Positions 24,778 through 35,809 of a stretch of 35,809 nt of DNA are shown piece after piece. Source of the stretch: a virus; IMG/VR virus record IMGVR_UViG_3300028196_000038, positions 1 to 35,809 of that record, one strand, 5' to 3'. Below the pieces are notes generated by a model. It was not told the origin of the DNA. It searched no databases and saw nothing but the letters and a program-made list of their open reading frames with translations. The translations under genes were made by a program, and so were the position numbers. Position 1 is the stretch's first letter. Each line of letters starts with the position of its first letter.

Positions 24778-25995
24778 ATGGCAAGAATACAAAAAGTTGA
24801 CCTCGGAAATTCTATAGAGGCTTGGAGACAGAAAACAAATCTCATTTCTAGTTATTTAGGCGATTTAGATGATTTAAATACCGATGACAGTGGCACTATT
24901 GTCGGCTCTTTAAATTCAATAGAAGCTAAAGTTGTTACGGCAGCAACTGCTAGAACGTTGATTTCAGGTGCGAATGCTGGAGCAGGAAGTTATGTATCAT
25001 TAGGATATAATAATATAACTGGTGTTATAACACTAACACGCGCGGCACTTTTACCTACAGACATACCGAACTTAGATGCTTCTAAAATTACTACAGGTGC
25101 TTTCGGCGCATCAAGAATATCAAGTGTTGACGCTACAACAATAACTTTAGGAACTGTTGCTGTTGCTAGACTTCCCAACTTAGATGCTTCTAAAATTACT
25201 ACAGGCACTTTTCCTGATGCTCAATTATCTAGTCTTAGTGTAAGCAAACTTATTGGCGGCACAATAAATGCCTCGCACATACCTAATATTACTGCAGAGA
25301 AAATTGTTCATGGACCAGATTCGGGTGATTATGGTGCAGTTGCAAAAAGCGCATTGCCTATGGATCTAGTATACACTGGTGGTAGTTATAATGGAACAAC
25401 TCCACAAACTATTACATCTGCTATGACGTTTGAAGGAGTCAATTTATTTGGTGATAGTGCAGGTTCTCCTGGCGGAACAATTACTGCTAATAAAGCAGCA
25501 ATATTTAATAGTACTGTTGAAGTGAATGATCATGTAACTACCACAACAAATAACACATTAGATATAGGTACTGCAAGCAATAAGTTTGCTAATGTTTATG
25601 CGACTACCTTTCAAGGTAATGCAACATCTGCAAACTATGCTGACCTTGCAGAAAAATATACTACTGATGAAGAACATCCTATTGGTACAGTCATGATGGT
25701 AAATCATGGTCCAAATGGGGAAACTACAAACTGTACCAATTCTGGTATTCCAGTGGGCGTTATCTCAGAAAAACCAGCTTTTCTAATGAATTCTGAAGCG
25801 GAAGGACAAGCACTTGCTCTTAAAGGTCGTGTGCCTGTAAGAATTTCTGGTCCTATTCGTAAGGGTGAAGCTGTATATGCATATCATAATGGTTGCGCCA
25901 GTGTAGAATTTAACGGCGCTCATATTATAGGAATTGCTCTCGAATCGAATGACTTTGAAGGAGAGAAAATGATTGAATGTATTCTTAAATTGTGA
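24778..25995 (+). CDS. Tail fibre protein
   Basis: A 405-residue fibre-type protein. Residues 90-180 contain repeats of the PNLDASKITTG kind (N98 and N134, with a third diverged copy PNITAEKIVHG), typical of phage fibre shafts. Then comes a Gly/Thr-rich part and a C-terminal head beginning ATSANYADLAEKYTTDEEH, a module known from the tips of many phage fibres. T4 places the short fibre gp12 at this point of the operon. No chaperone gene follows. The head domain from about residue 285 contains VRISGPIRKGEAVYAYHNG and ends in FEGEKMIECILKL. This is the last of the late structural genes before the promoter region. Confidence 0.78.
   Translation: MARIQKVDLGNSIEAWRQKTNLISSYLGDLDDLNTDDSGTIVGSLNSIEAKVVTAATARTLISGANAGAGSYVSLGYNNITGVITLTRAALLPTDIPNLDASKITTGAFGASRISSVDATTITLGTVAVARLPNLDASKITTGTFPDAQLSSLSVSKLIGGTINASHIPNITAEKIVHGPDSGDYGAVAKSALPMDLVYTGGSYNGTTPQTITSAMTFEGVNLFGDSAGSPGGTITANKAAIFNSTVEVNDHVTTTTNNTLDIGTASNKFANVYATTFQGNATSANYADLAEKYTTDEEHPIGTVMMVNHGPNGETTNCTNSGIPVGVISEKPAFLMNSEAEGQALALKGRVPVRISGPIRKGEAVYAYHNGCASVEFNGAHIIGIALESNDFEGEKMIECILKL
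25069..25097 (+). repeat. Direct repeat, copy 1 (fibre shaft)
   Basis: A 29-base stretch in the fibre gene that recurs exactly at 25177-25205, 108 bases (36 codons) further on and in the same frame. It encodes the NLDASKITTG segment. The near-perfect DNA identity, not just protein identity, suggests recent duplication or recombination of shaft units. Confidence 0.85.
25177..25205 (+). repeat. Direct repeat, copy 2 (fibre shaft)
   Basis: The second exact copy of the 29-base unit at 25069-25097. See that entry. Confidence 0.85.
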
Positions 25996-26021: not shown

Positions 26022-26049
26022 ATTATAACAGGTTTTTAATATTTGTCAA
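26022..26049 (-). promoter_or_regulatory. Sigma-70-type promoter facing left (antisense to the fibre gene)
   Basis: On the minus strand TTGACA (26049-26044) is followed after 16 bases by TATAAT (26027-26022), both exact consensus boxes. Its -35 lies in the left arm of the 13-bp inverted repeat. Transcription would start near 26015 and run antisense into the fibre gene. I see no obvious minus-strand gene there, so if used it makes an antisense RNA. It may also be a by-product of the palindrome. Confidence 0.5.
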
Positions 26050-26076
26050 CCCCTAAAATGCCCTTGACAAATATTA
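26037..26076. repeat. 13-bp perfect inverted repeat; possible hairpin terminator or operator
   Basis: The arms TAATATTTGTCAA (26037-26049) and TTGACAAATATTA (26064-26076) are perfect complements around a 14-base loop. The right arm is followed by TTTTATC, so the RNA could act as a weak, AT-rich terminator for the late transcript of the fibre gene. Each arm also holds the -35 box of one of two divergent promoters, so the same site could be an operator for a regulator. The two readings are not exclusive. Confidence 0.6.
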
Positions 26077-26092
26077 TTTTATCTGATATAAT
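26064..26092 (+). promoter_or_regulatory. Sigma-70-type promoter of the radical SAM operon
   Basis: TTGACA (26064-26069), a 17-base spacer and TATAAT (26087-26092): both boxes and the spacing are exact consensus for the host housekeeping sigma factor. The start site would be near 26099. The cassette downstream can therefore be expressed early and independently of the late structural operon. Such a start site makes an ATG at 26101 nearly leaderless and favours the ATG at 26116. Confidence 0.85.
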
Positions 26093-26115: not shown

Positions 26116-26622
26116 ATGTTTACTAAAGATCAATTTCTAAAAGCTATCCAATCAAAAATTGTATACGATCAAAATATGGTTTATTCTATAGATCAAAAAG
26201 GTCGCGAGAAGAAAGTAAAAAACTTTGCTGAAGTGATGAAGTATCCAGGTCGTTCAATTAAAATTGAAAGAATGGAAGACTATAATTCAGATATTTTTTC
26301 TTATTGTCTAGAACTAGAAGATCAATATGAACATGCAGGACCAATAACGTGTCATCTATTTTATGCAAAGCCGGGCGCGTATTCTTTTAAAGAACATACT
26401 GATCCAGATGATGTTATTATACATTGTTGCGAAGGCTCAAAAACACTAACACTTGATGATACGGTTCTTACTATTAAAGAAGGTACGTTTCTTCATATTC
26501 CTGCAGGAACAAAGCATCAAGCTATTAACGAACATGAGGCACTTACTCTCAGTTTTGGTTTAGAGAAATTTATAGAGGAAAAGGTTGACGATGAATTGGC
26601 TCTTTTATCTAAAGACAACTGA
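26116..26622 (+). CDS. Cupin/JmjC-like putative Fe(II) oxygenase
   Basis: A 168-residue protein with a cupin-type double-stranded beta-helix in its second half. The metal triad H94-x-D96 (FKEHTDPDD) and H134 (IPAGTKHQAIN) fits the cupin/JmjC class of Fe(II), 2-oxoglutarate-dependent hydroxylases. A core CEGSKTLTLDD strand pair lies between them. Such enzymes hydroxylate amino-acid side chains of proteins or peptides. I choose ATG at 26116 over 26101, because AAAGGA (26104-26109) sits 6 bases before it and the promoter start is near 26099. It is the first gene of the cassette and overlaps the radical SAM gene by 32 bases. The substrate is unknown; the neighbours suggest a peptide or protein target. 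Confidence 0.7.
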   Translation: MFTKDQFLKAIQSKIVYDQNMVYSIDQKGREKKVKNFAEVMKYPGRSIKIERMEDYNSDIFSYCLELEDQYEHAGPITCHLFYAKPGAYSFKEHTDPDDVIIHCCEGSKTLTLDDTVLTIKEGTFLHIPAGTKHQAINEHEALTLSFGLEKFIEEKVDDELALLSKDN

Positions 26623-27634
26623 GACTTGTCAACTAAATTGCGCTCACTGCTTCACAAGTGGCAGTAATGGTGCAAAGATTTACTGGAACACAGACAAGTT
26701 AGTTGATTGGATCCACAGATTTAGAAAAGAAGCGCATCTTGCTTCTAATAGACCAAGAGATGCAAAATATGATAGCATACATATGGAGTTTCATGGCGGT
26801 GAGCCATTTCTTGTACCTGTAGGACAAATGCGTAAAGTCTATGATGCTTGTGATGGTCTTTGGGACCATATGAGTTGGGGTGCAACAACTAATCTTGTGT
26901 TTAAATTAAAAGATCAGCACATTGATTTCATCAAAGGTCCTTTAAATAGTAGACTCGGCACTTCTTGGGATCGTAAAATTCGTTTCGACAACAATAAACA
27001 ATATAGCTTGTGGCATAAAAATGTCAAGACTTTATTAAGTCAAGGTGTTACTATACGTTTGTTTATTAGTTTGACTAAAGATACTCTTGAAAAAGATCCC
27101 ATCACATTGTTGAGATGGTGCCGAAGATTGGGTGTACAAGAGGTATCTTTAGAACGTCTTACAAATAACGGAAATGCTAGGCAAGCATCAGAAATATTTC
27201 CATCTAATAAAGAGCTTGATGATTATTTTTTAAAGATGCACATGCAAAGTGAAAAGTATGGTGCGAGAGACTGGTTTGAAAATGATTTTCTTGAAAATGT
27301 ATATGCTAAGTTTGAAAAAACTCTTACTACGTGTGGTACATTCTGCAGAGATTGTGAAGAAAAGCTATTTACTATAAACGGCGATGGTACAATTAGCGGA
27401 TGTCCCAACTCTGCGCCAGAATTTCAATTCGGACATTTAGATGATTCTATTAAAACTCTTATAAATAGCCCTAAGAGAATAAGAAATATATTAGAAGAAA
27501 AAATGAGAAATCCAAATTGTCTTTCTTGTCCTGTTGCTAAGTATTGTGGTGGTGATTGCCATCAGTTAGGATGGGAAGGAGATATATGCGGAGCACCAAA
27601 AAGTCTGATGATGGAATTAGCCCATTATGTCTAG
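26591..27634 (+). CDS. Radical SAM/SPASM enzyme 1 (peptide-maturase-like)
   Basis: A 347-residue radical SAM protein. The [4Fe-4S] motif is C13-x3-C17-x2-C20 (ETCQLNCAHC), and GGEP follows in HMEFHGGEPFL. The C-terminal part is a SPASM-type domain with CGTFCRDC, FTINGDGTISGCP, and the cluster C310, C313, C319, C323, C333 (CLSCPVAKYCGGDC). Enzymes of this design, such as anaerobic sulfatase maturases and RiPP maturases, make oxidations or crosslinks on peptides. The start at ATG 26591 is preceded by a GAGGAAAAGG ribosome site; the longer frame needs TTG. It lies nine bases before the CHxS-tailed protein gene, so it is the prime candidate to act on that protein. Confidence 0.9.
   Translation: MNWLFYLKTTETCQLNCAHCFTSGSNGAKIYWNTDKLVDWIHRFRKEAHLASNRPRDAKYDSIHMEFHGGEPFLVPVGQMRKVYDACDGLWDHMSWGATTNLVFKLKDQHIDFIKGPLNSRLGTSWDRKIRFDNNKQYSLWHKNVKTLLSQGVTIRLFISLTKDTLEKDPITLLRWCRRLGVQEVSLERLTNNGNARQASEIFPSNKELDDYFLKMHMQSEKYGARDWFENDFLENVYAKFEKTLTTCGTFCRDCEEKLFTINGDGTISGCPNSAPEFQFGHLDDSIKTLINSPKRIRNILEEKMRNPNCLSCPVAKYCGGDCHQLGWEGDICGAPKSLMMELAHYV
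27460..27467 (+). promoter_or_regulatory. Possible internal late promoter box before the CHxS protein
   Basis: A perfect TATAAATA inside radical SAM gene 1, 177 bases before the ATG of the CHxS-tailed protein. If used, that protein would also be made late, like a virion part. A chance match in AT-rich coding DNA is equally possible. Confidence 0.3.
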
Positions 27635-27643
27635 GAGAAAAAA

Positions 27644-28522
27644 ATGCCAATAACTGGATCAGTGAAAGAAAGTAATTTATTAGGCAGGTATCATGTACTT
27701 GTTACTGATAAAATTAATAATGCGATAAAATTTCATGATGGAAATTTACCGTCTGCAGATTTTTCATATTTAATTGATGGACCTTCTACCGGCATTACTG
27801 ATAATGCAGATTTGCCTGGTACAAATGCGATAATTGATGCGTCTGACATATATGATACTTTACTAGCAGATTTAAATAGATATACTAGAGTGAGAAACAT
27901 TAATATTAGTATATCAATTTCGTCAACTGGTGGAGGAGGTAATACGCCTATTCTTTCAAAAAACACACAAGCAATTGCAAAAGCAAAAGCGGTATTGCAA
28001 TATAATGTCAATTGGGTCACTGCAGTTACAAATGCAAAAAATGCTGCAGACACTGCGGCAAGTGCTGCAATATTAAATGCTTTTGTTGCAACTAATACCA
28101 CCAGTGGACCAACAGAACCATTTTCTTTTCCCGATCTGCTATCAGATAAAGCAAATGTACTTACTCTTTTTAATTCTAGTGTTCCACAAGCAGCACAGAC
28201 AAAGGCTGCTACAGAATATAATCAATTGTTAGGCAGAGCCGCAAGAGTACAATCATCATTTTCTGCGTCAGGTTATGGAATTTTACACCACAAGTATGGA
28301 TTTAATATTTCAAGTTCTGATGTTGCAAATCCTGCACTACTCACAACAGATGAACTTATAGATGATACTCATTTAGAAACTCTTATGAATAGTTTATATC
28401 AAGCTTGGTTATCAACTGCATCAGATGCTAGTTCGGCAAATTCTCAACTTGGATTAACTGGTGTATCTATATGTCACAACTCTTGTCATAGTTCTTGCCA
28501 TGGATCTCGCGGAAGGAGATAA
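27644..28522 (+). CDS. CHxS-tailed protein, putative substrate of the radical SAM cassette
   Basis: A 292-residue protein with no recognised domain. The first 270 residues are beta-prone at the start (GRYHVLVTDKINNAIKFHDG), then Ala/Asn/Ser-rich and helical (for example TNAKNAADTAASAAILNAF), as in phage tail or fibre proteins. There is no cysteine before residue 277. The last 16 residues are CHNSCHSSCHGSRGRR, three CHxS units and a Gly/Arg end (28472-28519). Confined, repeated Cys/His at a C-terminus beside radical SAM/SPASM enzymes is the pattern of a maturation substrate. HxS repeats are the mark of HxsA, substrate of the His-Xaa-Ser system. It is much longer than a normal RiPP precursor, so a modified structural protein is likelier. 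AGGAG precedes the ATG. Metal binding by the tail is an alternative. Confidence 0.72.
   Translation: MPITGSVKESNLLGRYHVLVTDKINNAIKFHDGNLPSADFSYLIDGPSTGITDNADLPGTNAIIDASDIYDTLLADLNRYTRVRNINISISISSTGGGGNTPILSKNTQAIAKAKAVLQYNVNWVTAVTNAKNAADTAASAAILNAFVATNTTSGPTEPFSFPDLLSDKANVLTLFNSSVPQAAQTKAATEYNQLLGRAARVQSSFSASGYGILHHKYGFNISSSDVANPALLTTDELIDDTHLETLMNSLYQAWLSTASDASSANSQLGLTGVSICHNSCHSSCHGSRGRR
28513..28518 (+). promoter_or_regulatory. Ribosome binding site inside the terminal Gly-Arg-Arg codons
   Basis: AAGGAG, ten bases before the ATG at 28529, lies within the codons GGA AGG AGA that encode the last Gly-Arg-Arg of the CHxS protein. The same bases specify the basic tail and start the next gene. 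Confidence 0.7.
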
Positions 28523-28528
28523 CTTATT

Positions 28529-29197
28529 ATGAATATGAAAAAAGTGAAAGCGCCTCTTGATATTGAAGATTTAAAATTATATTTTGAAGATAAAGATACC
28601 AGATATTTAATTGATTATTGTGAGTCTGAATTAAAAGGTGAAAAGTTGCTAGTATATCTCAGCAACCTAGAATTGCCTTGTGATATACAGATAGATAACT
28701 ATTCTGAAATGTTTGAACTTGGTAAAGCTTATTTCAATTTTACGCAAATCTTGTCTGTAGACATTTTAGAAAAATTTGCAATTAATGTACTTAATGGCTA
28801 TAAAAATTTAACCTCAATTGATGACGAACTACAATCGTTTATTACAGAAAATCGGGAAATAATTGAAAAGTGGTCTAATAGATTAGATTCATTAACATTA
28901 TATAATATGTACATTATTCAAGATGAAACTATACAAGATTTTGTAAAATCTCATACCGAAGATAAGACCGACGATATCAAAGGAATAAACTTTGTTAGCG
29001 TTTTAAAGCATGAAGATTTTTATTACTTCTACAATAAAATCGATAAAACAACACTGAAATACTATTCAAAGTATTTTAATGAATATATGTTTTCAGGTAA
29101 AAATCTATTCTACTACTGGTCCTATGAAAAAAATCCAATGTTTGTATTAACTTGGGCGGTCGGAGAAGGTTTGTTGGAAAATGTTTCATCTGTATAG
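28529..29197 (+). CDS. Unrecognised cassette protein A
   Basis: A 222-residue, acidic, helix-rich protein with many Tyr, Phe, Glu and Lys residues. I recognise no family. There is no signal peptide, membrane segment or metal motif; three Cys are scattered. It lies between the CHxS protein and the second unknown gene and overlaps the latter by 17 bases, so the two are probably made together. By position it could be a substrate-recognition or scaffold protein of the pathway, but nothing in the sequence shows this. The next in-frame ATG, two codons in, is also a possible start. Confidence 0.7.
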   Translation: MNMKKVKAPLDIEDLKLYFEDKDTRYLIDYCESELKGEKLLVYLSNLELPCDIQIDNYSEMFELGKAYFNFTQILSVDILEKFAINVLNGYKNLTSIDDELQSFITENREIIEKWSNRLDSLTLYNMYIIQDETIQDFVKSHTEDKTDDIKGINFVSVLKHEDFYYFYNKIDKTTLKYYSKYFNEYMFSGKNLFYYWSYEKNPMFVLTWAVGEGLLENVSSV

Positions 29198-30287
29198 GAA
29201 TGTATATTTAGAGACTGATGAAAATTTAGATCCTAATAAAGATAGATGCGTATATTCTAAGATAGCCGGGTTTCCCATGTGGAGTGAACTGGCACACGAA
29301 AAAGCTTTTAGTGGAAAACTACATGACTGTGGAACATCAATAGATTCTGAATCTTTTTTAAATGCTTTACAAAATTATACAAATGAAAAGAAGTTTGTAA
29401 TATATGGAGATGATGATAGTCTTGCCAAAATGTTTGCAACATGGATTAATTTTATACTTCCTAACAGTAATGAAGATACTGCATTTCTAATATACAAATC
29501 ACTTATATTTCAAAAAAATGTTACAAATCAAGCTAATGATTGGTATACAGGATCAGGTGCAATTAGTTTAGAAATTCTTGAAAATGAGTTTAGAGATTAT
29601 TACAATAAATTTAAAATGTCGAATAATGAGCAAGAAGGTAAATATGCTTTCGTGAAACAACAGCACGACATACATCCTAGTATTGAATATGTTCTAGCGA
29701 CATTTATCTCTACAGGAAAAATGCATAAACAATTGTCCGATATGATTCAAATGATAATGAGAAAAGTATCAGAAGAATATCTTGTCGAATTAAAAATAGA
29801 ATTTATGACAGAATTTAATAAAATAAAATTTTCGCAGTGCGCTAAACTAAAAAAAATATATACACTAGATAATTTGGAAGACATATATGAGGATGATAGT
29901 CCTATTGGAAATTTCTTTATGAGTAGTAGAATTTTTGGATCCAAGTATGTTTTAAAACCTTCTGCCTATGGACATAATTTAATATTTGAAAATATAACAA
30001 ATAAAGATATAGAGACATTAGAACAATATATAGAAAGTATTAAACAACCAAGAGAATATTTTGATATGTTAAAAAGACATATAAAAAATATCCAAAATGG
30101 TTTTACAAAAGATGAACTATATGAGTTTTTAACTAATGAAGCTTATGTAGGAAAAAATGAAAGTGATAGTATTTTTAGTAATGCCATATTTTCAAATACT
30201 TCTGATACTGTAAATAAATATCTCATAAATCATATTCTGAATAGAGTTGACGAGCCTGAAAAAATACGAGAGTTTTCATTAATATGA
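29181..30287 (+). CDS. Unrecognised cassette protein B
   Basis: A 368-residue protein. Residues 1-130 form a compact-looking part (YRNVYLETDENLDPNKD, VYSKIAGFPMWSELAHEKAF, KKFVIYGDDDSLAKMFATWI), and the rest is mostly helical with charged residues. I cannot name a family. It overlaps gene A by 17 bases and radical SAM gene 2 by four (ATGA), placing it firmly inside the operon. No catalytic motif stands out. Candidates are a peptide-binding partner of the maturases or an immunity or trafficking factor, none supported by motif evidence. Confidence 0.7.
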   Translation: MFHLYRNVYLETDENLDPNKDRCVYSKIAGFPMWSELAHEKAFSGKLHDCGTSIDSESFLNALQNYTNEKKFVIYGDDDSLAKMFATWINFILPNSNEDTAFLIYKSLIFQKNVTNQANDWYTGSGAISLEILENEFRDYYNKFKMSNNEQEGKYAFVKQQHDIHPSIEYVLATFISTGKMHKQLSDMIQMIMRKVSEEYLVELKIEFMTEFNKIKFSQCAKLKKIYTLDNLEDIYEDDSPIGNFFMSSRIFGSKYVLKPSAYGHNLIFENITNKDIETLEQYIESIKQPREYFDMLKRHIKNIQNGFTKDELYEFLTNEAYVGKNESDSIFSNAIFSNTSDTVNKYLINHILNRVDEPEKIREFSLI

Positions 30288-31429
30288 CATTGGCACCAGA
30301 TAATCCAGCACCATTAGATTTCTCTATATACAAATTATTGGATCAGAAAATAACAAGATCCAGTGAAATTGTTGTGATATTTTTTGAACACTGCAATTTA
30401 AAATGCGTATTTTGCCCACAAGATCATGATTCTATGGTAGGTGCTAGTAGAGAAGAAATTCTGGCTAAAAGTGATACTGTAGCTAAGTTTATCAATAATT
30501 CCCCAAGGTCAAAAGATTATAAACTACACTTATTAGGTGGAGAATTATTTGAAGATGTTTGGATTGAAAAGGGCTTTTTAGACATATATGATGAATTTAT
30601 GGATTCAGTCAGATCCAAGATTAACATTGGTGACAAAAGAATTTATTTTAATTATCTTACAAATTTCATGTTTGACAAAAAGAATTCAGATAAGATTATG
30701 GATTTTTGTAAGAAACATGATATAAAGCTTTCAACATCTTATGATCCAAGAGGTAGGTTTAACACAAATCAACTAGACATATTCTTGGAAAATGTTGAGA
30801 CTTTTAAAAATTATATTAGAAATGTTTCAATTGTTACCACTAGTCAAAATGTACAAACAATTATAACTAGCAATGATAAAAGCACCTTCGACTATTTGTA
30901 TAAAAACTTTCCTGTTGATTTTGATGCTTATATGCCATCACCACTAATCAAAGCAGATTCTAAATTAATTCCTAAAGACAGTGAGTTATTAGCGTTCAAT
31001 AAATATTTGATAGATAACTATCCTGAGTGTGAAAATATGGACGCATTTCATGATCCATTAAATCAGACTGGCGCAATGATGTGCACCAGAGGAAATTCAA
31101 TAACTATTGTTCCAGATGGTTCATCACCCGGTGGTTGTTGTGGCGTAGCGTATCAACGAGATAAAAAAACAGGTAATAAACCATTTGAAACGGGAAAAAT
31201 AGTAGAAAGCTTTTTAAAAAAGTACAATTGCTTTGAATGTGAATATTATGAAAAATGTCCATTCACATGCTTTGTAAAAGCTGATATGCCTGGAGATCAT
31301 AATGATATGGAAGAATGTGTGTTCAAAGAGACATTCAATTATGTCAAGAAAACAAAAGGATTTAAACCTTTGAGAGATGGTGAAGATGATCTTACATATG
31401 GATTTAGACAAAAAGTAAGAATGTTATGA
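30284..31429 (+). CDS. Radical SAM enzyme 2 with SPASM-like C-terminus
   Basis: A 381-residue protein with the radical SAM motif C37-x3-C41-x2-C44 (EHCNLKCVFCPQ) and GGE in LHLLGGELFED. The C-terminal third has cysteines in SPASM-like spacing: MMCTRGN, DGSSPGGCCGVAY, CFECEYYEKCPFTCF and a last Cys in MEECVFKE. Such domains hold extra Fe-S clusters and bind peptide substrates. The N-terminal 30 residues before the cluster motif are longer than in enzymes 4 and 5. It starts by ATGA overlap with unknown gene B and ends by ATGA overlap with the B12-type enzyme, so these are translated in sequence. Confidence 0.88.
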   Translation: MTLAPDNPAPLDFSIYKLLDQKITRSSEIVVIFFEHCNLKCVFCPQDHDSMVGASREEILAKSDTVAKFINNSPRSKDYKLHLLGGELFEDVWIEKGFLDIYDEFMDSVRSKINIGDKRIYFNYLTNFMFDKKNSDKIMDFCKKHDIKLSTSYDPRGRFNTNQLDIFLENVETFKNYIRNVSIVTTSQNVQTIITSNDKSTFDYLYKNFPVDFDAYMPSPLIKADSKLIPKDSELLAFNKYLIDNYPECENMDAFHDPLNQTGAMMCTRGNSITIVPDGSSPGGCCGVAYQRDKKTGNKPFETGKIVESFLKKYNCFECEYYEKCPFTCFVKADMPGDHNDMEECVFKETFNYVKKTKGFKPLRDGEDDLTYGFRQKVRML

Positions 31430-33111
31430 GTAAATTAACAATTGCGTTCATAAATCCACCACATGCTGACTGGTCACTTGCTAACAATATTGCATATTTT
31501 CAGTTTCAAAGCCACTACAATAGATTTGGAAAATATTCAGAAAACGTAGAATGGTTAGAACCACCAATTGAGTGGAATGTTTACACCGATTATTATCAAG
31601 TCTATAATCAAATATGCAGCGCAGATATTGTATTATACAGTTGCTATGCATGGAACTATACAATTTGTGATGATGTTGCGAAACTGTTTAAAGAAAAAAA
31701 TTCTGATATAATAAATGTTTTAGGTGGTCCACATATAGGTACAAATGAACCAGAGTTTCTTGCAACTAGAACGATGTATGACTACATATGTAAACCTACA
31801 AAACCTGGTGAAGTCTTTGTTGAAGATATGATTAATATGTGGTTTGAGGAAGGTATTGTAGCTGAAAACATTAGTTGGGAGTTAAGATCAGATAAACAAA
31901 CTGTTTTTAACATTGCAAAACAAGATTATTCGATATATGAAGATCACATTGACCTATTGACAAAGGCTCACAATTATGCTATGAAAGAAAACTTAGAGCC
32001 GTTCTTGACTTTTGAAACTACACGAGGATGTCCTTATCAGTGTGTTTTTTGTGAATGGGGTGGTGGCATAGGTGGTAAAGTCTATAAGAAAGAACTTGAC
32101 ATTGTAAAACGAGATATCGACGCAATTAAGAAAATAGGGCATAAAGATGTTTATTTGACAGATGCTAATTTTGGTATGTTTCAAGCAAGAGATTTAGAAT
32201 TTTTTGAATATGCGTGGAATAAAAATGTTTATCTAACAGATGTTTCAACAGTCAAATATAAAGACCTTGAGCGCCGAAAAATACTTGTGGATAAGTGGTT
32301 TGATATCATAGGAAAAAGACCGACAGAAAGAAACCAAGAAAAATATGTTGCTGTAGTGCCTACAATTTCAATTCAATCTATAAATGAAGAAGCAATGGGT
32401 ATAGCAAATCGTGTAGATTTATCTCAACAAGATAAGATTGCCATGAGTGAGCATATCAGATATAAATGTCAAATTCAAGGATATCCTTCACCTGCAATGG
32501 AATTGATCCTTGCTATGCCAGGATCAACACTAGAAGATTTTTATAAAGAGTTTAAATTACTCTGGAATTTTAGACAGTGGACTTCAAATGACTTGGGTGG
32601 ATGGTCATCTTTTAGGCATGACTATATGTTTTTTCCTGATAGTAAATTAAACTCCAAAGAGTATAAAGAAAAATATAAGATTGAAACCGTAGAAGTTTAC
32701 TCAGATATTGTAGACGAGGATGGTATAGATAACAGACATAGTTTATATAAAGATAAGACAACATATTTTAAAACAATTCGATCAAGTTATTCTTTTTCAG
32801 TGGAAGATATGTATGAAATGTGGTTTATGAATCAAGCTGGTGTTTGGTTCTTAAAAAATATTTATACTCCAATAGAACATCTCATAGATGCAGATAAGTT
32901 TGCAAAAATATGTTATAATGTAGTTAAAGAATTTAAAGAGTTTAAAAGAATTATGTTACAAATAAAAGATATACTTGATCCTAATACATCTCCTAAATCT
33001 GTGAGAAAAATAGACGGTAAGTTTAGACAGATTGCAATAGAAGATTTTTTGAATAATCAACAGATACTAATTAAACCTCTTATAATGGAAAAGATTTTAA
33101 ATGAAACTTGA
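31426..33111 (+). CDS. B12-binding-type radical SAM enzyme
   Basis: A 561-residue protein. Residues 1-140 look like a cobalamin-binding Rossmann domain (LTIAFINPPHADWSLANN, DIVLYSCYAW, then INVLGGPHIGTNEPEF). The DxHxxG axial-ligand motif is absent, as in many B12-type radical SAM enzymes. The core follows with C202-x3-C206-x2-C209 (RGCPYQCVFCEWG), then YLTDANFGMF, and a substrate-side IQGYPSPAMELILAMPGST. Family members methylate unactivated carbons or rearrange rings; some do not bind B12. A long C-terminal helical region (about 420-561) is unassigned. It overlaps the previous gene by ATGA and the following 2OG gene by 11 bases. It is the only member of the cassette with this architecture. 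Confidence 0.87.
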   Translation: MSKLTIAFINPPHADWSLANNIAYFQFQSHYNRFGKYSENVEWLEPPIEWNVYTDYYQVYNQICSADIVLYSCYAWNYTICDDVAKLFKEKNSDIINVLGGPHIGTNEPEFLATRTMYDYICKPTKPGEVFVEDMINMWFEEGIVAENISWELRSDKQTVFNIAKQDYSIYEDHIDLLTKAHNYAMKENLEPFLTFETTRGCPYQCVFCEWGGGIGGKVYKKELDIVKRDIDAIKKIGHKDVYLTDANFGMFQARDLEFFEYAWNKNVYLTDVSTVKYKDLERRKILVDKWFDIIGKRPTERNQEKYVAVVPTISIQSINEEAMGIANRVDLSQQDKIAMSEHIRYKCQIQGYPSPAMELILAMPGSTLEDFYKEFKLLWNFRQWTSNDLGGWSSFRHDYMFFPDSKLNSKEYKEKYKIETVEVYSDIVDEDGIDNRHSLYKDKTTYFKTIRSSYSFSVEDMYEMWFMNQAGVWFLKNIYTPIEHLIDADKFAKICYNVVKEFKEFKRIMLQIKDILDPNTSPKSVRKIDGKFRQIAIEDFLNNQQILIKPLIMEKILNET

Positions 33112-33640
33112 TCCGAATGAAGGCTTTATTGTTGAAAGAAATAGAACTGCATTTCAGTTTGTTGAGGATACTGTACCTAAAATTAGATGGTTAAGGGGCA
33201 TAGGCAATAGAAAAGATTATTATTATCCTCTCAACTATTATTTCTTAGGCTTGCGTAGCAAAATGTTAAATACGAGTGATTATTTATTTCATGAATATTT
33301 AAAACCTTATTCTAAAAGAAAAGAATTGATATACTATCATTTATGGAATGGTACCGAACAAACCTCTTGTCATTGGCACAATGATTTTTGTGAAGGTGCG
33401 AATATAATGTTTTTGCTATATTTTACTGATATGAAAAAAACTTTAGGTGGTGAAATTATGTTTCGTAATGTGAAAGAAAACAATAGAATTACTTGTTTTC
33501 ATTTGCCCCAAAAATATGACGTTTTAATGGGCAGCCAAGATGAAAAGTTTGAGCATAGAGTTGAGCATTTCAGAGATTCTTCGGTACAAAGAATTACAAT
33601 GAATTTTGGATTTAAGGTTGACAACTCGCCATGGACCTGA
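33101..33640 (+). CDS. 2OG-Fe(II) oxygenase 1 (prolyl-hydroxylase-like)
   Basis: A 179-residue protein with the Fe(II)/2-oxoglutarate triad H93-x-D95 (CHWHNDFCEG), H152 (KFEHRVEHF) and R164 (QRITMNFGF), plus the LLYFTDMKKTLGGEIMFRN strand pair usual between them. Related enzymes hydroxylate side chains of proteins or small molecules. It overlaps the B12-type gene by 11 bases and radical SAM gene 4 by 10. Its cassette position suggests it acts on the same substrate as the radical SAM enzymes. The exact reaction is not predictable from sequence. Confidence 0.8.
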   Translation: MKLDPNEGFIVERNRTAFQFVEDTVPKIRWLRGIGNRKDYYYPLNYYFLGLRSKMLNTSDYLFHEYLKPYSKRKELIYYHLWNGTEQTSCHWHNDFCEGANIMFLLYFTDMKKTLGGEIMFRNVKENNRITCFHLPQKYDVLMGSQDEKFEHRVEHFRDSSVQRITMNFGFKVDNSPWT

Positions 33641-34671
33641 TAATAAAACCAACAGAACTTTGTAACTTTAAATGTTCATTTTGTTCTTCATCTAAAATTA
33701 CATTTGAAGATAATACAGCTACACTTGACTTGAATAAAATATTTAAATTTCTCAATAGATTTCCAGATACAAAAACAATCATTATTAATGGCGGCGATCC
33801 TCTTATGATGCGTCCTAACTACTATTGGAAAATCATAGAATTTCTTGATAAGCATGACATGCCGGCAACGATATCACTTACAACTAATTTGTATCCGTTC
33901 TTGATGAAACCTCAAAAGTGGGTAGAACTTTTCAATCATCACAGAGTTGGAGTTGCTACTTCATTTCAATATGGCGGTGGTAGACTTAAAGGCGATTATA
34001 GTGAGTTTACAGAGGAAGATTTTTGGAAATGTTCTGATGCCATGGTTGAGCATGTAGGATATAGACCATCATTTATTGCAGTGATCGTTGAAGAAAATGA
34101 AGATACTGTAATACAGACGGTTGAACTTGCAAAAAAAATGAATGTTGTTTGCAAAGTAAATTATGCAATGGCATCAGGATCACAATCAGCACCCTACAGA
34201 TTATCAAAAATATATGAAAGATATATTCAGATATGGAAAGAGGGTCTGAGTGATTGGGAACATAATACTCAACAGATGTTAAACAGGTTGAGAGGCGGTT
34301 CAACAATATGCCCGCAAGCTAGAAACTGCGATAGTCATATTAGAACAATTCAGCCAGAAGGTGATTATTATTCTTGTGGTGCATTTGGCGACGATCTTGA
34401 CAAACCAATAGATTTTGATTATGAAATGAGAGGTGGTTTTGCAACACCTTTGAATGACGATATTCATTTAATGAGTATGAAGAAAGCATGTTTTACATGC
34501 CCAATGTATGAGATATGCAATGGATGTAAGAAAACTATCAAAGACTTAAAAGAATATAACATGGTTGAAGATCATTGTCAACATATGAAATCAATGGCAA
34601 ATGATATAATTGCTCTAAATAGATTAGAGACAGCCGTAACCCCCTATATAGACGAAAGGGAAATAGCATGA
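33631..34671 (+). CDS. Radical SAM/SPASM enzyme 4
   Basis: A 346-residue protein starting almost at the cluster motif: C11-x3-C15-x2-C18 (ELCNFKCSFCSS). NGGDPLM is the GGE-type motif. The C-terminal SPASM-like cysteines are in STICPQARNCDSH, GDYYSCGAFGDD and CFTCPMYEICNGCKK, with a last one in EDHCQHMK. The RTIQPEGDYYSCG stretch is the typical entry to such a domain. Its motif spacing equals that of the truncated enzyme 5 at the window edge, so the two may be paralogues. It overlaps the two neighbouring oxygenase genes, by 10 and 4 bases. Confidence 0.9.
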   Translation: MDLIIKPTELCNFKCSFCSSSKITFEDNTATLDLNKIFKFLNRFPDTKTIIINGGDPLMMRPNYYWKIIEFLDKHDMPATISLTTNLYPFLMKPQKWVELFNHHRVGVATSFQYGGGRLKGDYSEFTEEDFWKCSDAMVEHVGYRPSFIAVIVEENEDTVIQTVELAKKMNVVCKVNYAMASGSQSAPYRLSKIYERYIQIWKEGLSDWEHNTQQMLNRLRGGSTICPQARNCDSHIRTIQPEGDYYSCGAFGDDLDKPIDFDYEMRGGFATPLNDDIHLMSMKKACFTCPMYEICNGCKKTIKDLKEYNMVEDHCQHMKSMANDIIALNRLETAVTPYIDEREIA

Positions 34672-35279
34672 TAGAAACTATATTTCCAGTAAAAATGTTT
34701 CATGCCAAAATGCCGATGAATGATGAAGATGCATCTTCATTGAATGCAACATGTCAAGCAATATTCAGAAACCATGTTGCAATGAAAGGAATTTCATTTC
34801 AAGATGCGGGCGATGATGGTGTGCATATTCCAGTATTTACGAATGATAACATTAAAACATACAAAGAAATTAAAGAGTTGCACAATTTTTTTGCTCAATC
34901 ATTTCATATTTTGGCAAAAGAATATGATAATACAATCACATTTGAAGAAATTTTAGATTGTATGGAAGAAACCACAGGTAGACTGCCTTTTATGCGTAGA
35001 GGTGACTACAAAGGTCTGCATTGTCATAGTGGAGCATCTTTAGTTGCAGTCTTTTATCTTGACGATGTTGATAATGATAAAGAAGGTGGCAAACTTATTC
35101 TCCATGATCCTGCTTTCAATCAAGTCATAAGAACAAAACCTAAAAGTAAAATGTCAATTGATACTGAAAAACACTGCATAATTATTGTACCCGCGCACGT
35201 ATGGCATGAGGTAACTCCATATAATGGTAACGAGGATAGACTAGCAGTAGTAATGAATATTTCTTTTCCTTACAAGTAA
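34668..35279 (+). CDS. 2OG-Fe(II) oxygenase 2 (phage-type)
   Basis: A 203-residue protein similar to the 2OG-Fe(II) oxygenases common in marine phages. Motifs are GLHCHSGASLVAVFYLDD (H118, H120), GGKLILHDPAF, the second metal-side His in VPAHVWHEVTPY (H180), and R191 in EDRLAVVMNISF for 2-oxoglutarate. HxH stands where the canonical motif is HxD, as in several phage members. It begins by ATGA overlap with radical SAM gene 4 and ends one base into the start of gene 5, so it belongs to the operon. The substrate is unknown. Confidence 0.78.
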   Translation: MIETIFPVKMFHAKMPMNDEDASSLNATCQAIFRNHVAMKGISFQDAGDDGVHIPVFTNDNIKTYKEIKELHNFFAQSFHILAKEYDNTITFEEILDCMEETTGRLPFMRRGDYKGLHCHSGASLVAVFYLDDVDNDKEGGKLILHDPAFNQVIRTKPKSKMSIDTEKHCIIIVPAHVWHEVTPYNGNEDRLAVVMNISFPYK

Positions 35280-35809
35280 TGATTGTATCTGTAAACCCAT
35301 CTTATTTTTGTAATTTTCGCTGTGACTTTTGTTATCTTACCAATGAACAGTTGGGCGATCAGAAAAAAATTTCAGTTGACAGACTTGATGAATTACTATC
35401 ACAAGTACCCAATATAGAGCATGTTGATTTATACGGTGGTGAAATTGGTGCTATGAAGAAAAGTTATTTTTATGATGTAAAGAATACAATTAAAAAGTAT
35501 TATGATGGTAAAATAAATATTAACACAAACTATTCTATGATGCATGATGGCTTTTTTGATGATGATGTTTATCTGTCGGTATCTTATGATTTTGAAGCAA
35601 GAGAAAAATCAAATCTAGTTTTTCAGAATATGATGATGAGTCGAGTACCTATAGCAGTTTTAATTTTAGCTTCACCAAAAGTTCTTAGTATGAATGTAGC
35701 TGAGATAATAAATCTGTTAAATATGTGTGGTGCAGTAAAGTCGGTGGAGATAAAGCCATACTCAATCAACCAAGCAAACGCTTTTACTGTGACGCACAAA
35801 GACTTTGAA
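35279..35809 (+). CDS. Radical SAM enzyme 5, N-terminal part (cut by window end)
   Basis: The frame is open for 177 codons from ATG 35279 to the last base, so the gene continues outside. The start is MIVSVNPSYFCNFRCDFCYL, with the cluster motif C11-x3-C15-x2-C18, then DLYGGEIGAMKK (GGE motif), a SVSYDFEA strand and a VEIKPYS strand, as in the radical SAM barrel. The ATG overlaps the previous stop by one base (TAATG). Cluster position matches enzyme 4. Whether it has a SPASM domain cannot be seen. It is a clear partial gene and not a fragment. Confidence 0.88.
   Translation, partial: MIVSVNPSYFCNFRCDFCYLTNEQLGDQKKISVDRLDELLSQVPNIEHVDLYGGEIGAMKKSYFYDVKNTIKKYYDGKININTNYSMMHDGFFDDDVYLSVSYDFEAREKSNLVFQNMMMSRVPIAVLILASPKVLSMNVAEIINLLNMCGAVKSVEIKPYSINQANAFTVTHKDFE

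Follow-up and report, generated by a model that had tools for sequence, protein, structure and literature searches.

The window analyzed here is a 35.8-kb virus fragment from IMG/VR (record IMGVR_UViG_3300028196_000038, positions 1 to 35,809), in which eleven genes on the same strand, many of them overlapping, run from position 26116 to the window end. They form a cassette of radical S-adenosylmethionine (SAM) enzymes, oxygenases and a small protein carrying a repetitive C-terminal tag. In relatives, the cassette extends beyond the position matching the window end. The five CxxxCxxC radical SAM genes (starting at 26591, 30284, 31426, 33631 and 35279) and three Fe(II)-oxygenase-like genes (26116, 33101 and 34668) listed by a first-pass annotation of the sequence were all found at these positions. 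Its candidate substrate corresponds to the gene at 27644–28522, whose product ends in CHNSCHSSCHGSRGRR, and its placement of the cassette after structural genes agrees with the contractile-tail genes found 5′ of it, which encode baseplate wedge subunits, hub/lysozyme-like proteins and tube-cap proteins.

The C-terminal tag and the cassette enzymes

The tag has the consensus C-H-x-S-C-H-x-S-C-H-x-S-R-G-R-R (16 residues). Since tblastn with a 24-residue tag query gave no match in the phage collection, probably due to low-complexity masking, a degenerate DNA pattern with the stop codon left unspecified was used. This search of IMG/VR returned at least 120 loci; among the matches listed, 117/120 stop exactly after tag residue 16; of the other three, one is 15 residues long and two either are of low complexity or read past that point. 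Because the pattern contains no stop codon, this exact termination argues that the tag is not a chance match. In a scan of bacterial and archaeal genomes totaling 257 Gb, the pattern gave 19 matches, 12 of them exact tags and seven low-complexity or chance. When tagged proteins of the class-1 phages (one of two classes, see below) were aligned, all invariant columns fell within the last 16 residues. For the codon analysis, enzyme A loci supplied 66 distinct proteins, selected with a filter that fixes Cys, His and three Arg. At the Ser positions, which the filter left free, Ser occurred in 55–60 of the 66 and was encoded by both AGY and TCN codons, and selection therefore acts on the amino acids of the tag.

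The same tail and enzymes are widespread, occurring in hundreds of IMG/VR contigs and in the cultured phages Atu_ph07, FLC6, Phosso and DT01. In these four and in SURPRISE13, a small gene ends in CHxSCHxSCHx[SA]RxRR, the bodies are strongly diverged, and the order cupin–radical SAM A–small gene–further radical SAM genes is common to all five. The tagged protein is gp170 in Atu_ph07, gp72 in FLC6 and QTH80265.1 in DT01.

Two unusual tags were seen in other records. At L301 (11013–11702) the natural tag variant CHYSCFTSSCHFSRGRR lacks one His and has one extra residue, while the protein at L122 (7832–8512) carries a tandem pair of tag units (CHSSCHDSCHSNVVCHSSCHDSCHSARGRR).

Table 1. Positions of the cassette genes and associated features in the window
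Feature	Position	Strand	Remarks
Fiber gene adjoining cassette	24778..25995	+	C-terminal domain phrog_22593/phrog_19602 (tail fiber); weakly Peptidase_G2-like
Sigma-70 consensus promoter of cassette, TTGACA-17-TATAAT	26064..26092	+	12/12 consensus match, 5′ of cupin gene
Cupin / JmjC-like Fe(II) oxygenase (cupinA)	26116..26622	+	Cupin_2; HxD...H invariant
Radical SAM enzyme A, full SPASM domain	26591..27634	+	TIGR04085 above cut-off
Tagged protein, 292 amino acids, predicted substrate	27644..28522	+	C-terminus CHNSCHSSCHGSRGRR
16-residue C-terminal tag CHNSCHSSCHGSRGRR	28472..28519	+	
Protein E, conserved, function unassigned	28529..29197	+	phrog_20767; accompanies class-1 tagged bodies, also in Bdellovibrionota
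Protein F, variable, function unassigned	29181..30287	+	In 41/54 class-1 loci
Radical SAM enzyme B	30284..31429	+	Six additional invariant Cys
B12-binding radical SAM enzyme, KedN5-like, accessory	31426..33111	+	In 32/54 loci
2-oxoglutarate (2OG)-Fe(II) oxygenase G	33101..33640	+	HxD...H...R invariant in 46 relatives
Radical SAM enzyme C	33631..34671	+	Eight additional invariant Cys
2OG-Fe(II) oxygenase H	34668..35279	+	PF13759
Radical SAM enzyme D, truncated by contig end	35279..35809	+	Four further conserved Cys in relatives

Enzyme A matched the SPASM domain model TIGR04085 with 38.1 bits (cut-off 27). Its SPASM cysteine pattern is complete and invariant in 33 relatives, and all of its cysteines are invariant or nearly so in 78. 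Enzyme B of Atu_ph07 scored 15.5 bits against the SPASM model (cut-off 27). Across relatives, CxxxCxxC is invariant in enzymes A–D and the B12 enzyme, and auxiliary cysteines are invariant in A–C and nearly invariant in D, which bears out the SPASM-type cysteines noted in the first-pass annotation. For enzymes A–D, the SPASM domain model alone was passed and no full-length enzyme family scored above its cut-off. Their best curated matches were mostly peptide or protein maturases (DynA, CbpB, anaerobic sulfatase maturase, PapB and HxsB/HxsC), as were their nearest solved relatives; grouping with sugar-, lipid- or nucleotide-modifying families, which that annotation had named as evidence against peptide modification, was not seen. 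SPASM enzymes act mostly on peptides and proteins. Viperin (PADLOC pVip) was tried as an identity for enzyme A and rejected, the score being 26.2 bits against 180 and confined to the core motif.

In oxygenase G, residues H93, D95, H152 and R164 are invariant in 46 relatives and make up a 2OG-Fe(II) signature; the gene had no match in Pfam. Oxygenase H matched PF13759 with 39.8 bits (cut-off 27), and HxD...H of the cupin protein is invariant across relatives. For the B12 enzyme, the KedN5 type appears to be the nearest named subfamily, at a score (model NF033712, 93.3 bits, E = 1.1e-26) below the membership cut-off of 700, and the closest solved structures are TokK and CysS. Protein E was modeled with a predicted local distance difference test (pLDDT) score of 94, and a fold search of the PDB with this model gave no significant match.

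Linkage of the tag to enzymes and fiber genes

Relatives of enzyme A were collected with a profile search that was blind to the tag, giving 377, of which the closest 80 were fetched. A tag gene lies directly downstream of enzyme A in all 74 of these loci with room for it. Gene content was counted in 54 class-1 loci with at least 9 kb of room, which are the closest relatives: protein E and enzyme A are present in all 54, B in 53, C and D in 52 each, and the cupin gene in 50, followed by oxygenase G (49), protein F (41), oxygenase H (33) and the B12 enzyme (32).

Class-2 phages carry two adjacent tagged genes encoding proteins of ~130 residues each, and a profile of these aligns with the class-1 proteins over the last 56 columns only. 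Their enzyme cluster has the order cupin-A-C-D-B, and proteins E and F are absent. On 14/18 contigs checked, the class-2 tag genes lie elsewhere on the same contig as the enzymes, and the other four are 36–57 kb fragments. Both classes are present on one 151-kb contig. As the class-2 body is mostly unrelated while the same tag, the cupin and A–D are kept, it is the tag and not the body that accompanies the enzymes. Cassettes lacking a CHxS-tailed gene, which the first-pass annotation would have counted against peptide modification, were thus not encountered among the loci with room or, fragments aside, among the class-2 contigs.

Some cassettes hold further genes. Adjacent pairs of dihydrofolate reductase (DHFR)-like genes lie inside Burkholderia phage cassettes (L003, 14406–15583; L006, 14325–15538), and among 26 cassette records an A-type iron-sulfur (Fe-S) carrier scored above cut-off in eight and an IscU-like protein in two.

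The class-1 tagged protein was modeled as a folded body (pLDDT 87) with the tag as a loose, low-confidence tail. A fold search with the body gave no significant match in the PDB, and the significant matches in BFVD were uncharacterized or unnamed phage proteins, including the Atu_ph07 tagged protein. Three BFVD matches (A0A8S5USJ8, A0A8S5USJ7 and A0A8S5USV2) are longer Myoviridae sp. ctijX18 proteins resembling the tagged body fold.

The tail-fiber domain of the gene adjoining the cassette in the window (phrog_22593/phrog_19602) recurs in other phages. In 69/71 class-1 loci, the end of a gene with this domain is no more than 6 kb upstream of the tag gene, and in 24/24 class-2 loci such a gene ends within -10 to +4 bp of the first tagged gene. 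In the main text of the published Atu_ph07 virion proteome, coding sequences (CDS) 170–215 are given as one of three clusters encoding most virion proteins; CDS 170, the first of that cluster, is the tagged protein. The numbering used here agrees with the paper where it names the portal (gp198) and prohead core (gp204).

Several of the genome tag matches lie in Bdellovibrionota, relatives of predatory bacteria, where the neighboring genes are chromosomal and, with names read by eye, include mutL-like, miaA-like and respiratory genes, and one cassette locus is on a 4.15-Mb contig. In a survey with the protein E profile, 17/369 Bdellovibrionota genomes matched. Fully covered loci contain relatives of A, B, C and D, protein E and extra radical SAM genes, and several also contain a cupin gene. 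The tags differ from that of the phages (CHGNFPPPCHGSRGRR, CHSACHDNCHSSRGRR, CHSNHCSHSNHGSRGRR and CHSSHSSHSSHSSRGRR). Compared with hhalign, the phage class-1 and Bdellovibrionota tagged proteins aligned over 185 columns (99.9%, E = 8.6e-31), and by this profile comparison they are homologous; short patterns taken from a bacterial tagged protein as query retrieved zero viral relatives. In a tree of enzyme C, phages and Bdellovibrionota are split on a single branch with support of 93/92 (moderate and rough, with long branches), and a recent transfer between them is not indicated by this tree.

At least 8/10 wide Bdellovibrionota loci have a Peptidase_S74 gene close by. Four of these genes encode a prepilin N_methyl domain above cut-off and others a prepilin-like start below cut-off. 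The Peptidase_S74 domain acts as a chaperone in phage fibers and in the mosaic adhesive trimeric (MAT) fibers of Bdellovibrio (PMC10769870).

Two small genes recur in this setting: at L331, L332, L335 and L337, the gene next to that for Peptidase_S74 encodes a protein of ~122 amino acids with a signal-like N-terminus, followed in three of the four loci by one of ~190 amino acids. In the Bdellovibrionota phylum set, L334 (1–19901) has about ten CxxxCxxC genes around the divergent tag CHSNCYTPPPKSRSRR.

Proposed function and alternatives

Taken with the enzyme relatives, the linkage of tag and enzymes strongly supports the leading hypothesis of the first-pass annotation, peptide or virion-protein modification, and the cassette is probably a radical-SAM system that modifies the C-terminal tail of a fiber-associated surface protein. 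It would be a dedicated protein-maturation line, the substrate being the 16-residue tail of a small folded protein from the same operon. The tail would project from the folded body and be modified by the four SPASM/twitch-type radical SAM enzymes and the cupin oxygenase that both phage classes have in common. The chemistry may consist of thioether or carbon-carbon links together with hydroxylation at the repeated Cys, His and Ser. In many phages, 2OG oxygenases and the B12-type methyltransferase-like enzyme would act as accessories, with C-methylation as an option. Once matured, the protein would stay with the particle, capping the adjacent tail fiber or partnering its tip, and the Bdellovibrionota homologue would serve the Peptidase_S74 fiber likewise. 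Because the bodies differ and the tag hardly does, the job of the modified tail is probably independent of the host; it could, for example, make rigid or metal-binding contact with the attacked cell's envelope. More tentatively, and with somewhat more doubt than conviction, we suggest a hitherto undescribed means of arming attack fibers that is common to phages and predatory bacteria, in which maturation would turn the tail into a tip of new chemistry that acts on almost any Gram-negative envelope.

Several points weigh against modification of the tail on a surface protein. The type of substrate is read from distant enzyme relatives, all below full-length family cut-offs; the 74/74 count speaks for the closest 80 of 377 enzyme A relatives only; and the class-2 enzymes lie at least several kb from the tagged pair, which makes that linkage one of genome and not of operon. 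The hhalign score is partly due to the tag that both sets of proteins share, no solved structure matched the fold of the tagged body or of protein E, and the Atu_ph07 virion evidence, a cluster boundary given in the main text of the paper, is indirect. The tag alone could also bind metal without modification.

A ribosomally synthesized and post-translationally modified peptide (RiPP) with a released product was also considered. The body would then be a long leader, and the modified tag, once cut off, a small molecule used in infection or predation as a signal, toxin or metal carrier. The set of SPASM enzymes, B12 enzyme and accessory oxygenases does recall RiPP pathways, and a variable body with an invariant tail recalls a leader with a fixed core. 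However, family searches recognized no protease, transporter or immunity gene among the cassette genes, the class-1 body is predicted to be folded, and class 2 shares the tail region only and hence has no common leader; the fiber-gene linkage, and the Atu_ph07 tagged gene that opens the virion cluster in the published text, also count against release, which we regard as unlikely. Virion-protein modification fits better, because of the folded body, the adjoining tail-fiber gene and the first place in the Atu_ph07 virion cluster. We consider it improbable that the tag binds metal without being modified and that the enzymes act on another part of the fiber or virion. Cys/His-rich repeats could hold iron or zinc unaided and a fiber gene adjoins, but among the closest 80 of 377 relatives the tag gene is a constant partner of enzyme A, the two classes have the tag and not the body in common, and the spacing and RGRR end are stricter than metal binding alone seems to require.

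Two further alternatives place the activity away from the tail. The product of the enzymes might be a small molecule, or their targets nucleotides, sugars or tRNA, and the tagged protein would then serve as carrier, chaperone or Fe-S donor; phages are known to encode nucleotide- and sugar-modifying enzymes, and DHFR-like genes lie within some cassettes. Against this, family searches of the cassette found no glycosyltransferase or nucleotidyltransferase, no such family scored above cut-off, and the SPASM pattern is typical of peptide maturases, so that we find this very improbable. An anti-host or defense system resembling viperin is barely credible: the weak viperin matches to the radical SAM core that suggest it are confined to the common core motif and far under curated cut-offs, and the tag, the SPASM cysteines and the fiber linkage would be left unexplained.

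Known systems, earlier reports and promoters

His-Xaa-Ser systems (HxsA with HxsB/HxsC; TIGR03978, TIGR03977) resemble the cassette in combining a tail of His/Ser repeats with a pair of radical SAM maturases. Among the weak matches, HxsB ranks with the better ones for enzymes A and B, as does HxsC for C, and one Bdellovibrionota tag is CHSSHSSHSSHSSRGRR. In contrast to these systems, the phage tag contains Cys and its RGRR end is fixed, and the cassette has four radical SAM enzymes and oxygenases. Scores of ~28–35 bits were below the HxsB and HxsC cut-offs (A against HxsB, 34.7/370; C against HxsC, 30.3/267.9), and seven tagged proteins searched against the NCBIfam His-Xaa-Ser families gave no match at E ≤ 1. 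The radical SAM/SPASM maturases DynA, CbpB, PapB and anaerobic sulfatase maturase have the same architecture and a genetically linked substrate, whereas the cassette enzymes would act on the tail of a folded protein, probably one of the virion, and score below the full-length cut-offs. Polytheonamide-type pathways treat one peptide with C-methyltransferases of the B12 radical SAM type, further radical SAM enzymes and hydroxylation; their enzymes are different ones, and the cassette has a fixed 16-residue target and a phage or predator fiber context. Bdellovibrio MAT fibers involve Peptidase_S74-type fiber genes, as adjoin the tag cassette here, but the cassette-adjacent genes mostly have a prepilin-type start, and the words "radical" and "pilin" do not appear in the main text of the MAT paper (PMC10769870).

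If correct, the proposed maturation would, to our knowledge, make this the first known virion protein with a radical SAM assembly line dedicated to its maturation, the system being shared with fiber-gene neighborhoods of predatory-bacterium relatives. It would also offer a reason why T4-like marine phages have so many genes for radical SAM enzymes and Fe-S assembly. Up to 12 radical SAM genes together with Fe-S assembly genes have been described in T4-like marine viral genomes and read as Fe-S metabolism, in passages that mention neither a tag nor a substrate (PMC5332604); the gene counts given there probably reflect the same kind of cassette. Earlier genome papers report the cassette genes one by one. 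No description of the tag was found in the open-license papers searched, and an overview of jumbo phages does not mention radical SAM. The presence of the system in cultured phages makes the maturation claim directly testable by mass spectrometry.

Sigma-70 promoters matching the consensus at 11/12 positions or more were found 5′ of the cupin gene in 35/154 loci, compared with 2/770 shuffles. In the window, a second perfect sigma-70 consensus promoter runs in the opposite direction, from 26049 to 26022, and in this region (26022–26092) the -35 boxes of both promoters lie within an inverted repeat, AATATTTGTCAA...TTGACAAATATT. The arrangement is perhaps an operator, or the source of an antisense RNA against the fiber gene.

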